Source of the DNA: Acidobacteriota bacterium
GTDB lineage: Bacteria; Acidobacteriota; Terriglobia; Terriglobales; Acidobacteriaceae
NCBI GenBank assembly: GCA_013289795.1
Contig: JABCZH010000003.1
Coordinates: 124,001-188,000, forward strand
DNA length: 64,000 nucleotides
Reading direction: 5' to 3'
The position numbers and the translations under genes are program-made. Shown here one piece after another: positions 24,030 through 27,756 of the stretch; positions within the stretch are counted from its first letter, which is position 1, and every line of letters starts with the position of its first letter. The notes under the pieces are model-generated. The model had not been told where the DNA came from. It did no database searches and was given only the letters and a program-made list of their open reading frames with translations.

Positions 24030-24374
24030 CTATTTGAAGGCCTTGATCGCCGATGCCTCTTCTTCCTTCACATCGAAGACGGTGTACAGCTTGGTGATCT
24101 GCAGCAGATCGTGGACCTTCTTGGTCAGATTCAGCAGTTTGAGTTCGCCACCTTGATTGCGAACCGTGGTGAAGGCGCTGACCAATTCGCCGATGCCCGA
24201 ACTGTCAATGTAGGTGACCTCGCCCAGGTTGAGCAGGATTTTCTTCTGATTCTTGGCGAGTAGGTCGCGCACTGCGTCGCGCAGAATTACGCTGCCTTCA
24301 CCGAGAGTGATGCGGCCGCTGCAATCCATGATCGTTACTCCATCCACCTGACGAGTATTGGTTTTCATGCTCAC
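24030..24374 (-). CDS. STAS-domain anti-sigma factor antagonist
   Basis: 114-aa SpoIIAA/RsbV-type protein. The phosphorylated serine region is YIDSSGIGEL (S58/S59). It partners the kinase encoded just upstream, with a 4-nt GTGA overlap; ATG 24368 is an alternative start. In this family, the unphosphorylated form releases a sigma factor from its anti-sigma kinase. No sigma factor or PP2C phosphatase is adjacent, so its target lies elsewhere. Confidence 0.88.
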   Translation of the reverse strand: MSMKTNTRQVDGVTIMDCSGRITLGEGSVILRDAVRDLLAKNQKKILLNLGEVTYIDSSGIGELVSAFTTVRNQGGELKLLNLTKKVHDLLQITKLYTVFDVKEEEASAIKAFK

Positions 24375-24817
24375 TGGGAAGCCTCCTTGGCGTCCCCGGA
24401 CGATCCGGGAACGTGTTTAACGAGTTTGATTTCGGTGCCCGTTTGCGAAGGATGAATTTGTACTTCATCCATGAACGAACGTATAAGAAAAATTCCCCGG
24501 CCTGAGGTCTTCATCAGGTTCTCTGGGGCTAAAGGATCGGGAATCTTGGCCGGATCCAGGCCTTTTCCCTGATCCCGAATGGTGATGACCAGGTCGCGGC
24601 CGGTGGTCTCAAATTCCAGCTTCACTTTCTTTCCCGGATCATAAGCGTTGCCGTGGAGTACGGCATTGACCGCGGCCTCGCGCACTGCCATGGAAATCTG
24701 CATGACCTCGTCGTCACCGAAACCGGCTTCGACCGCGATCCGAGTCGCGGTGGTTTCGGCACTGTCGACGGTTTCCAGAGTCGAATCCAGTGTGTAAGAG
24801 ACCCGGTGGTCGGTCAT
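24371..24817 (-). CDS. Anti-sigma factor serine kinase (RsbW/SpoIIAB-like)
   Basis: 148-aa GHKL ATPase. N-box REAAVNAVLHGN (E47, N51), G1 box DQGKGLDP and G2 box SGRGIFLIRSF are intact. It would phosphorylate the STAS protein and bind a sigma factor. Normal length with a slightly long C-terminal tail. Two-gene operon with the STAS partner. Confidence 0.88.
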   Translation of the reverse strand: MTDHRVSYTLDSTLETVDSAETTATRIAVEAGFGDDEVMQISMAVREAAVNAVLHGNAYDPGKKVKLEFETTGRDLVITIRDQGKGLDPAKIPDPLAPENLMKTSGRGIFLIRSFMDEVQIHPSQTGTEIKLVKHVPGSSGDAKEASQ

Positions 24818-24990
24818 GGCTAAAGTTTATGAAGACTCGGGTTACCCTCCAGGCTGGCGCCGCATTGACGCGGGCGGCTGCCGCACGTGGGAACCCCCGT
24901 AGGACGAAGTCGCTAGTTTCGCCTTTCCCCTGTGCAAATGTCAACGCGGTCGCACCGCGGGCTCAAAAATTCTGTCATCAAGCCTCGAGA

Positions 24991-25055
24991 GGAGGGCTAG
25001 GTGCTCCCGCTACAAAACCGGATCCTCCCGGGCTGTATTAGACACCGGAGGAGCC
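24991..25055 (+). promoter_or_regulatory. Candidate SD-sequestering leader of the PRC-MgtE_N-CBS gene
   Basis: The ribosome-binding GGAGGAG (25047-25053), 6 nt before ATG 25060, can pair with CCTCC at 25024-25028, with flanking pairs extending the stem on both sides and a 13-nt loop. An upstream GGAGG (24991-24995) can pair with the same CCTCC, which would free the ribosome site. This is a hand-folded model; a known riboswitch consensus was not recognised. Confidence 0.4.
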
Positions 25056-25059
25056 AAAG

Positions 25060-26388
25060 ATGGGTCAGACATGGCGTACGGACGCGATGGCCTGTACTGG
25101 CAACGCATCTCACTGGATTCCGCTCCCGGACTTGAGTATGCTCTCAGCCATGCCGACCGTCACCCTCAGCGAACTGCTTGGCTCGCCAGTATCTGATCCG
25201 GGCGGGCGCTGCGGGCGGGTGCGTGAACTGGCGGTTTCCCCTCAGGAAGATCCGGCGCGTATCGCCATTCTCGTGGTTCGCACCAAGTCTGGCGACCGCG
25301 TTCTGCCTTTCAGTGCGGTGACCTCCATCAACGGAGGGCTCTGCACAGCGACCTCAGCCTCCACATGGACTGCAGCGGATGAACCCGAAGGCCTGCTGCT
25401 GCTGTCGCGCGACTTGCTGGATCAGCAGATCATTGATGTGCACGGACGCAAGGTGGTTCGCGTCAACGACGTGGACCTGCACCAGGACACCAGCAACAGC
25501 CATCCCACGCTAAGAGTGTCCGCCGTGGACGTCGGTGCGCGCGGTGCGGTGAGACGGCTACTCAAGGGCGTAGTACCGTGGGGGCCTCTGCGAGCCTTGC
25601 TACGCCAGATTCCGGAGCGCATTATCCCCTGGGAGTTTGTGGATGTAATTGAAACCGATCCTGCGCGGCGGGTGAAACTGAAGATTTCTCACGAGCGCCT
25701 GGCCCGGCTCCATCCCGCCGATATTGCCGACATCGTCGAAGATCTGGCTCCCGACGAACGCGAAGCAGTCTTTGAAACCCTCGACGAAGGAGTCGCCGCC
25801 GACGCTTTGGAGGAAGTCGATCCCAAGGTGCAAAAGTCGATCGTCGAGTCGCTTGATTCGGATCGCGCGGCTGAGATCGTGGAGGAGATGGATCCCGACG
25901 CCGCTGCTGACCTGCTGGCCGACCTCTCGGAAGAGCGCACCTCGGAAATTCTGCTGGAGATGGCGCCGGAAGAACGCAAGGAGGTGTCCGATCTTCTCGA
26001 GTTCAAGGAAAACACGGCTGCAGGGCGGATGAACACGCAGTATATTGCCTTAAACGTAATTGCCGCAGCCCGCGATGCGGTCGAAGCCCTGCGCCATTTC
26101 GAAGGCGGCATCGAGACAGTGAGCACGATTTATCTGACGGACTCACGCGGGACGCTGGCCGGAGCCGTGCCCCTGGCGAAACTCGTGCTGGCCACGCCCC
26201 AGACCCCGTTGCTATCGCTGACCCAGGAACCGCTGATCTCCTGCCACGCCGGGGCGGGCGAGAAAGCCGTCGCCGAACTCTTCGACAAGTACAACCTGCT
26301 GACCCTGCCGGTGGTGGACGACCACAACAAGCTGACCGGCGTTATCACTTCCGACGACATTATCAGCATGCTGCGGGCGAAGCTGTAG
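25060..26388 (+). CDS. Soluble PRC-barrel / MgtE_N / CBS protein
   Basis: 442 aa with no membrane helix. Two PRC-barrel-like parts (about residues 30-100 and 110-205), then an MgtE N-terminal superhelix with its repeating EEMDPDAAADLLADL pattern (about 210-330), then a CBS pair (about 330-440). MgtE channels carry the N and CBS domains before a membrane pore; here the pore is missing and an Nramp-type carrier follows. It probably senses magnesium and controls that carrier; inference from domains and synteny. Well-spaced GGAGGAG before ATG 25060. Confidence 0.82.
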   Translation: MGQTWRTDAMACTGNASHWIPLPDLSMLSAMPTVTLSELLGSPVSDPGGRCGRVRELAVSPQEDPARIAILVVRTKSGDRVLPFSAVTSINGGLCTATSASTWTAADEPEGLLLLSRDLLDQQIIDVHGRKVVRVNDVDLHQDTSNSHPTLRVSAVDVGARGAVRRLLKGVVPWGPLRALLRQIPERIIPWEFVDVIETDPARRVKLKISHERLARLHPADIADIVEDLAPDEREAVFETLDEGVAADALEEVDPKVQKSIVESLDSDRAAEIVEEMDPDAAADLLADLSEERTSEILLEMAPEERKEVSDLLEFKENTAAGRMNTQYIALNVIAAARDAVEALRHFEGGIETVSTIYLTDSRGTLAGAVPLAKLVLATPQTPLLSLTQEPLISCHAGAGEKAVAELFDKYNLLTLPVVDDHNKLTGVITSDDIISMLRAKL

Positions 26389-26496
26389 GCACGCGACCGA
26401 ACCCATCATAATTTCTCCAACTTTTCCTGTTCAGATCCTTGCGCTCCGTTTATTCTGTTCCATCGTCTTGCCATTAAGCATTTATGCTGGCGCACT

Positions 26497-27756
26497 GTGC
26501 CCATGAAATTTCTGAAAAGCTGGAAAGCCCGGATCCTGCTGTTCTTCGCCGTTGTCGGACCCGGCTTCATTACCGCCAACGTCGACAATGATGCCAATGG
26601 CATCTACACCTACTCGGCTGCCGGCGCACAGTTTGGGCATTTGCTGTTGTGGACCCTGATCCCGGTCACCGTGGCCCTGATCGTAGTGCAGGAAATCTGT
26701 GCGCGCATGGGCGCGGTTACCGGCAAGGGCCTCAGCGATCTGATCCGCGAGGAATTCGGCTTTCGCATCACCTTCTTCATGATGATCGGAATTCTGATCA
26801 TCAACTTCGGCAACGTGGTCGGTGAGTTTGCCGGCATTGCGGGCAGTCTGGAGCTTTTCGGCCTCTCCAAGTACGTCACCGTGCCGATTTGCGCGGTCAT
26901 CGTGTGGTTGATCCCGGTCAAGGGCCACTACAAGAGCGTGGAGAAAGTCTTTCTCGCGGCATCGTTCTTTTATGTGACCTACATCATTGCCGGATTTTTT
27001 GCCAAACCGGCGTGGATCGATGCACTGGTTCTCACTGTTAAACCGCCGCCCCGCGCGGCCTTTATGCTGCCCGGCTACCTCTACATGGCGATCGCCGTGG
27101 TGGGAACGACCATCGCTCCCTGGATGCAGTTTTACTTGCAGTCGTCCATTGTGGAGAAGGGCGTCACCAAGCGGCAGTACAAAGCCTCCCAGATTGACGT
27201 GATCGCAGGTTGCGTCTTTACCGACATAGTGGCCTGGTTCATCATCGTGGCCTGCGCCGCCACTCTGTACGTCCACGGTTATCACAACATTGCAGATGCC
27301 AAAGACGCCGCCCAGGCGTTGCGTCCGCTCGCGGGAGACTACGCCTACATCCTGTTTGCCGTGGGATTGTTCAACGCCTCTCTGTTTGCGGCGTCGATCC
27401 TGCCACTTTCTACCGCCTACACCGTTTGCGAAGGGCTGGGATTCGAGTCCGGGGTGGGAAAGAAGTTCAGTGAAGCGCCAGTATTCTACTGGCTCTATAC
27501 GATCTTGATCATGGCTGGCGCTGGCTTCATTCTGTTCCCCGACCTGCCGCTGGTGAAAATATCGATTCTTTCTCAGGTGATCAACGGAATCGCCATCCCG
27601 CCGGTGCTGATTTTCATGCTCCTGCTGGTGAATAAGAAGGAACTGATGGGCGATTTCGTCAACTCCCGCATTTACAACGCGGTTGCCTGGACCACCACAG
27701 TGGTGATGACCGTCCTGGCTTTGGCCTATTGTTGGACCTTGCGCTCAGGCGGGTAG
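26497..27756 (+). CDS. Nramp-family divalent metal carrier, atypical (possible Mg2+ type)
   Basis: 419-aa LeuT-fold carrier with 10-11 helices. In helix 1 the usual DPGN metal motif is replaced by DNDAN (residues 30-34, NVDNDANGIYTY), and in helix 6 the usual MPH-type metal-binding segment reads GTTIAPWMQFYLQS. This pattern is unlike manganese/iron Nramps and recalls the Nramp-related magnesium transporters. The MgtE-domain gene upstream supports magnesium. Start GTG 26497 or ATG 26503. Confidence 0.82.
   Translation: MPMKFLKSWKARILLFFAVVGPGFITANVDNDANGIYTYSAAGAQFGHLLLWTLIPVTVALIVVQEICARMGAVTGKGLSDLIREEFGFRITFFMMIGILIINFGNVVGEFAGIAGSLELFGLSKYVTVPICAVIVWLIPVKGHYKSVEKVFLAASFFYVTYIIAGFFAKPAWIDALVLTVKPPPRAAFMLPGYLYMAIAVVGTTIAPWMQFYLQSSIVEKGVTKRQYKASQIDVIAGCVFTDIVAWFIIVACAATLYVHGYHNIADAKDAAQALRPLAGDYAYILFAVGLFNASLFAASILPLSTAYTVCEGLGFESGVGKKFSEAPVFYWLYTILIMAGAGFILFPDLPLVKISILSQVINGIAIPPVLIFMLLLVNKKELMGDFVNSRIYNAVAWTTTVVMTVLALAYCWTLRSGG

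Follow-up and report, generated by a model that had tools for sequence, protein, structure and literature searches.

We describe a two-gene locus of an Acidobacteriota bacterium (GCA_013289795.1, contig JABCZH010000003.1) in which a soluble homologue of the cytosolic half of the magnesium channel MgtE (gene 1, the sensor) precedes an Nramp-related magnesium transporter (NRMT; gene 2, the carrier) at positions 25060-27756 of the 64,000-nucleotide stretch that was analysed (hereafter, the window; all positions count from its first letter). We slightly favour the view that gene 1 encodes a cytoplasmic regulatory subunit, dedicated to the carrier and able to dissociate from it, whose MgtE-type sensing module would gate uptake. 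The identity of both genes, their strict co-occurrence, the partial conservation of the sensing residues and the absence of the MgtE plug helix are established. Our analysis followed up a sequence-only reading of this DNA. The arrangement is not new: it has been known since 2014, when Shin et al. named NrmT and reported, in the available part of their paper, that most members adjoin a homologue of the MgtE N-terminal cytoplasmic domain (PMC4072509), and the present locus is an additional member. Our study contributes the exact co-occurrence of the two genes in 45 genomes, the finding that few of these encode the MgtE pore, and a linked co-fold, with which the role of the partner becomes a direct, testable question; the interest lies in this testability of a question from 2014, and less in novelty. 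If a soluble MgtE-type sensor gates a LeuT-fold transporter, feedback on magnesium uptake would be modular across unrelated folds.

Results

Gene 1 (25060-26388, on the + strand, as are all parts of the pair) encodes a soluble PRC-MgtE_N-CBS protein of 442 residues. Pfam models matched above their cut-offs for MgtE_N at residues 217-318 (98 bits; 25708-26013) and for CBS at residues 389-438 (36 bits); the first repeat of the CBS pair (residues 319-438; 26014-26373) was missed by Pfam and is covered by the alignment with Thermus MgtE and by the predicted fold. The N-terminal PRC region, which together with its linker spans about residues 33-200 (25156-25659), gave a weak match in gene 1 itself (E 0.029, 14.8 bits against a cut-off of 21.2). 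At E up to 1, PRC was matched in 30 of 32 relatives, the best at 7.7e-14, and MgtE_N and CBS were both matched in all 32. The maximal 19-residue hydropathy mean is 1.17, indicating no membrane helix, and the MgtE pore (PF01769) is absent from the domain matches of gene 1. This composition had been proposed in the sequence-only reading and was confirmed, with a PRC domain that is weak in gene 1 and clear in its relatives.

Residues 210-439 align with positions 23-252 of the 450-position model TIGR00400 (152 bits, below its cut-off of 232.75). Similarly, about residues 21-255 of Thermus MgtE align to gene 1, which ends where the plug helix would follow, and the sensor half of the linked model described below matches MgtE in a Foldseek search, the structural superpositions given below covering chiefly the carrier half. 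Judged by these alignments, gene 1 is identified as a homologue of the cytosolic half of MgtE without the pore. A large share of the best-conserved positions of the sensor family falls in residues 115-137 (the second PRC segment) and 159-191 (the linker), and this PRC/linker segment has no counterpart in MgtE.

In MgtE, the D91/D247 site bridges the N and CBS domains, and the D226/D250 site lies at the CBS dimer. According to the available text of two studies, Mg binding to the cytoplasmic domain leads to pore closure via the plug helices (PMC8104411), and mutations at D91/D247, D226/D250, D95, E59, E258 or D259 impair Mg-dependent closure (PMC5882242). Tested jointly in gene 1, these residues are partly kept and partly lost: in the alignment, D280, D284 and D433 correspond to D91, D95 and D247 of Thermus MgtE, and D248 stands at the E59 position. 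Among 92 sensor alignment rows, which include some loci twice and gene 1 itself several times, an aspartate occupies the D95 position in 90 rows, the D91 position in 66 and the D247 position in 68. Gene 1 has in common with the cytosolic domain of Thermus thermophilus MgtE (PDB 2yvy/2yvx) the MgtE_N domain, the CBS pair and the equivalents of D91, D95 and D247. Unlike T. thermophilus MgtE, it is a separate protein with an added PRC region, and it lacks the plug helix, the pore, D226/D250 and the ATP-site residues.

Gene 2 (26497-27756) encodes a 419-residue member of the Nramp family (PF01566, 326 bits) with 10 hydrophobic segments in its hydropathy profile. Among solved structures, EleNRMT of Eggerthella lenta (PDB 7qia) comes closest (364 bits, against 107 bits for DraNramp), and the gene 2 half of the linked model superposes on EleNRMT with a Z score of 51.0 (root-mean-square deviation 2.5, 392-395 residues) and on DraNramp with a Z score of 47.5. 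The NRMT signature, as given in the available text of the EleNRMT study, pairs a helix-1 DxxG with a helix-6 TxxA/T (PMC8806188). Gene 2 carries both: D32-A33-N34-G35 (26590-26601) in register with the canonical D-P-G-N, and T204-T-I-A207 (27106-27117) where canonical carriers show A/CxxM. The combination that marks canonical Nramps (MntH/SLC11), DxxN in helix 1 with A/CxxM in helix 6, was not found in gene 2. Of what the sequence-only reading had said about the carrier, the Nramp topology and the lack of an MPH-type ligand in helix 6 hold, and the helix-1 motif, given there as DNDAN, reads D-A-N-G once placed in register.

EleNRMT and gene 2 have the DxxG-TxxA site and the Nramp fold in common and differ in helix 1, which reads N-D-A-G-G in EleNRMT and N-D-A-N-G in gene 2. 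The fold and PF01566 are also common to gene 2 and DraNramp, a canonical Nramp/MntH; unlike DraNramp, gene 2 lacks DPGN and the helix-6 methionine and lies on a separate branch of the carrier tree. In this tree of 40 rows, canonical Nramps split off at 100/100, and gene 2 shares a branch of moderate support (82/84) with EleNRMT and the class-A carriers of Acidobacteriota (at least 364 bits, see below), in agreement with the placement outside canonical Nramps that the sequence-only reading had anticipated. Taken together, motifs, fold and tree identify gene 2 as a predicted NRMT outside the canonical Nramps. Members of this class would be expected to carry Mg2+ independently of protons, for which the lack of other recognised Mg importers in the host (see below) is indirect evidence. 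Among acidobacterial carriers, the residue preceding the last glycine of the helix-1 motif is mostly G or N; the carrier of Acidobacterium sp. S8 (66% identical) has the motif D-P-N-G. The closest carriers in named records belong to Terriglobia/Terriglobales metagenome genomes (86-90% identity).

The host genome (4.67 Mb, 33 contigs, 99.91% complete) encodes two other Nramp-family carriers on one contig (L002 and L003, contig C1), which are also non-canonical (N-D-A-G-A/T-T-I-A-P-W-Q and E-N-D-G-P-S/A-T-V-T-P-W); no sensor gene was found within their 1.5 kb flanks. Elsewhere, a canonical Nramp with DPGN and MPH (L168, 668-2590, - strand) bears a C-terminal universal stress protein (Usp) domain, and open frames of about 620-780 residues recur at distant Nramp matches in other Acidobacteriota.

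The locus shows the hallmark described by Shin et al., an MgtE-N-like gene adjoining an NrmT. Their pairs from Clostridium acetobutylicum (Ca_c0685) and Acidobacterium capsulatum (Acp2976/Acp2977) resemble it in that an MgtE N-terminal homologue adjoins an Nramp-related carrier, and the A. capsulatum pair additionally has the sensor upstream of the carrier and no riboswitch. They differ in coming from other species, and a PRC region goes unmentioned in the available part of that report (PMC4072509). In our sequence comparison, the A. capsulatum pair is represented by its relative Acidobacterium sp. S8. The words CBS, operon, subunit and riboswitch were not found in the main text of the EleNRMT paper, as far as this was available (PMC8806188).

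We sampled 199 genomes from across the phylum Acidobacteriota. Class-A carriers (at least 364 bits; next score 244) and sensors (at least 180 bits; next score 155) occurred in the identical 45 genomes, without exception. These pair genomes span 12 families, and 20 of them belong to the host's own family. The two genes lie within 400 bases of each other, sensor first and on the same strand, in 20 pair genomes; they are 0.4-2.5 kb apart in 7, 2.5-10 kb apart in 5 and more than 10 kb apart in 1, and they lie on different contigs in 12; the assemblies are drafts. In 7 of these 12 genomes (L085, L087, L088, L100, L102, L160, L162), the carrier is flanked by at least 1.5 kb without a sensor. Within one genus represented by nine sampled genomes, seven hold both genes, and G141 and G189 have neither a carrier match nor a listed sensor.

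A second class of pairs (carriers of 200-245 bits, sensors below 180 bits), which is not part of the 45, was present in 11 genomes with the sensor downstream of the carrier, and its carriers show the motif N-D-A-G (8 of 11 genomes examined in detail). When all carriers of at least 200 bits are considered, 56 of 58 genomes also hold a sensor match extending into the PRC part (hand count; sensors listed down to about 88 bits), and no such sensor is among the matches listed, down to the same score, in the other 141 genomes. The exceptions, G009 and G095, have carriers of 200-245 bits without a listed sensor, and the G095 carrier reads D-D-D-P-S. In the sensor tree, the carrier classes are not cleanly separated (2 changes), for which the long-branch row L145 is a possible cause. 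Sensor and carrier distances are correlated (Spearman 0.81, 26 loci); we did not use this as evidence because shared ancestry explains it. Open frames of 1147 and 947 residues (L109, L110) were considered as natural sensor-carrier fusions and rejected, the sensor match lying in a separate frame.

Both proteins were also co-folded as a single chain, joined by an in-frame translation of the stop codon and the natural gap of 36 codons. The resulting single model, obtained without a clean negative control, has a mean predicted local distance difference test score (pLDDT) of 87.4, a predicted template modelling score (pTM) of 0.80 and a disordered linker. By the pTM formula, halves without a fixed mutual relation would give about 0.5, and a value of 0.80 requires a mean inter-half error of about 6 A. 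The model supports a predicted docking of the sensor on the carrier.

The MgtE pore is rare where the pair is present: it was found in 8 of the 45 pair genomes versus 109 of the 154 others (Fisher 2e-10, without correction for ancestry), the 8 being divided into 1 of 20 in the host's family and 7 of 25 elsewhere. The host genome itself has no match to the MgtE pore, none to CorA, and none to MgtA above the cut-off; it encodes a CNNM family protein. Sixteen other pair genomes are without MgtE pore and CorA, and 12 of these are also without MgtA above the cut-off. All three importers are lacking in 13 of the 45 pair genomes versus 8 of 143 pairless genomes, three of which (G031, G080, G127) are less than 80% complete. 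In pair and pairless genomes alike, MgtE-pore matches occur in open frames of about 350-380 residues (e.g., G149, G157, G173, G032), which perhaps encode pore-only MgtE proteins.

Outside the phylum, annotated side-by-side pairs occur on plasmids of Alicyclobacillus, Pseudarthrobacter and Citrobacter, representing Bacillota, Actinomycetota and Pseudomonadota, and sensor and carrier matches lie close together, among the matches listed, in Leifsonia, Serratia, Cellulomonas, Arthrobacter, Mycolicibacterium and Streptomyces. As 40 of 168 records were listed in one of these searches and 40 of 72 in the other, no rate is given. The gene-neighbour survey proposed with the sequence-only reading has found the pair beyond this genome. 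On the Alicyclobacillus fastidiosus plasmid (L144, 1709-7178), the pair may be mobile, given that a recombinase gene flanks it on one side and transposase genes on the other. On the Citrobacter freundii plasmid pPSV (L172, 1-4218), typed as conjugative and IncHI1B, it adjoins genes for a heavy-metal P-type ATPase and an ArsR-type regulator. On a Tsukamurella tyrosinosolvens plasmid (L171, 1940-3753), genes for a PRC-MgtE_N-CBS protein and a DUF1003 protein overlap, and the module may there serve another membrane protein.

Discussion

In the mechanism that we propose, gene 2 would bring Mg2+, possibly also Mn2+, into the cell, and gene 1 would control this uptake. The conserved PRC/linker positions are lacking in MgtE. 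We infer that they form the part of the sensor that docks on the carrier, at its cytoplasmic face, and that metal is sensed by the N/CBS part, a picture with which the one co-fold model agrees. At high cytosolic Mg2+ (or Mn2+), ions bound at D280, D284 and D433 would lock a compact N/CBS state and the carrier would be inactive; at low metal, the sensor would relax and uptake would proceed. That regulation is inhibitory, and which metal is sensed, are parts of the proposal that we likewise infer. We know of no direct test of gating by an MgtE-like protein. A literature search, with most subscription journals outside its reach, found no later work on the MgtE-like partner since 2014.

Several observations weigh against a gating subunit of this kind. 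In the available part of the report by Shin et al., co-expression of the MgtE-like partner did not improve Mg rescue by the A. capsulatum carrier, and clostridial carriers were functional without a partner (PMC4072509). Strict co-occurrence and the linked co-fold support the idea of a separate subunit that the sequence-only reading had put forward, and the gating that it attached to this subunit finds no such support. Furthermore, N412 and S436 of gene 1 stand at D226 and D250, so that this site is lost; the residues named for the ATP site of MgtE in the available text of PMC5529423 are replaced; and the plug helix, which carries E258/D259 in MgtE, is absent. With this site and the ATP pocket lost and the plug helix missing, the MgtE gate cannot be transferred to the pair unchanged. 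The co-fold of a class-B pair with the opposite gene order (L155) reached a pTM of only 0.61, with the N-terminal part of the sensor unfolded, on a faulty alignment that put 71-83 residues of each of 38 sensor rows onto the carrier; the co-folding check suggested with the sequence-only reading has a positive outcome for the present pair, from a single linked model, and none for the other class. The cut-offs that define the 45 genomes were placed at score gaps seen in the lists. We also tested whether CorA and the pair exclude each other and found no exclusion, CorA being present in 26 of 45 pair genomes versus 101 of 154 others. For two proteins with MgtE_N and CBS, on plasmids of Peptoclostridium and Tsukamurella, the gene table, which is incomplete, shows no carrier within 2.5 kb. 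Finally, Rfam searches gave no riboswitch, whether over the entire window at the gathering score or, with E up to 1, over 24500-26600, and the M-box riboswitch of the riboswitch-regulated NrmT subset was not found upstream of the pair.

The pair could instead serve primarily manganese uptake, with the carrier importing Mn2+ and the MgtE-like subunit sensing Mn2+, which we consider unlikely while giving it appreciable weight. The A. capsulatum carrier fully rescued a Mn-import mutant and needed low millimolar Mg to rescue a Mg-import mutant, which makes it mainly a Mn importer in the available part of that report (PMC4072509); the assignment of Mg as the substrate in the sequence-only reading is not supported over Mn. 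On the other hand, when a Mg carrier rescues a Mn mutant, this does not prove its main substrate, and EleNRMT carries both Mg and Mn (PMC8806188, available text). The host is without a canonical Nramp among its three family members and without a ZnuA-family binding protein, which fits a role in Mn import. The absence of the helix-6 methionine ligand from gene 2 does not fit it, nor does the absence of the MgtE pore from 37 of the 45 pair genomes; the host and 12 other pair genomes are without MgtE pore, CorA and MgtA above the cut-off, so that another Mg importer is needed. In such genomes no candidate for this role other than the NRMT is recognised, which favours Mg. Nevertheless, since 8 of 143 pairless genomes are also without the known importers, the absence of these importers alone is no pointer to the NRMT.

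It is rather improbable that the MgtE-like protein acts in the same pathway without binding the carrier, as a general Mg sensor, a metallochaperone or a scaffold for other membrane proteins. The overlap of the Tsukamurella gene with a DUF1003 gene, with no carrier beside it, and the location of the two genes on different contigs in 12 of 45 genomes fit such a protein, and the partner role given by Shin et al. is feedback regulation or a chaperone, both speculative (PMC4072509, available part). The high pTM of the linked co-fold speaks for contact with the carrier, and, by hand count, all 56 genomes with a listed PRC-reaching sensor hold a carrier that scores 200 bits or more. That gene 1 is a functionless, decayed remnant of a pore-less MgtE channel is scarcely credible. 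Its alignment to about residues 21-255 of MgtE does stop where the plug helix would enter the membrane; the conservation of the sensor, which is found in 45 of 199 genomes and 12 families, contradicts this explanation, and the protein has a conserved PRC/linker part foreign to MgtE and is kept where it is unlinked to the carrier.

An extension of the regulatory-subunit proposal, which we regard as tentative and rather doubtful, is that PRC-MgtE_N-CBS is an obligate, dissociable Mg2+-sensing subunit that replaces the built-in gate of MgtE, gating a LeuT-fold carrier in pore-less Acidobacteriota and serving DUF1003 proteins in some Actinomycetota. If this were true, one regulatory module would be traded among unrelated membrane proteins.

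Further features of the locus

The start of gene 1 is uncertain, as relatives align only from about residue 27-34, and that of gene 2 has an alternative in the ATG at 26503. In the 108-base gap between the genes (26389-26496), no terminator-like site was found on the + strand, and there was no Rfam match; promoter- and terminator-like sites occur at chance frequency. An M48 gene lies downstream of the pair. Upstream of gene 1 and divergent from it, two genes on the - strand (24030-24817) encode a STAS protein and a HATPase_c_2 protein by Pfam, which we take to be an anti-sigma/antagonist pair.

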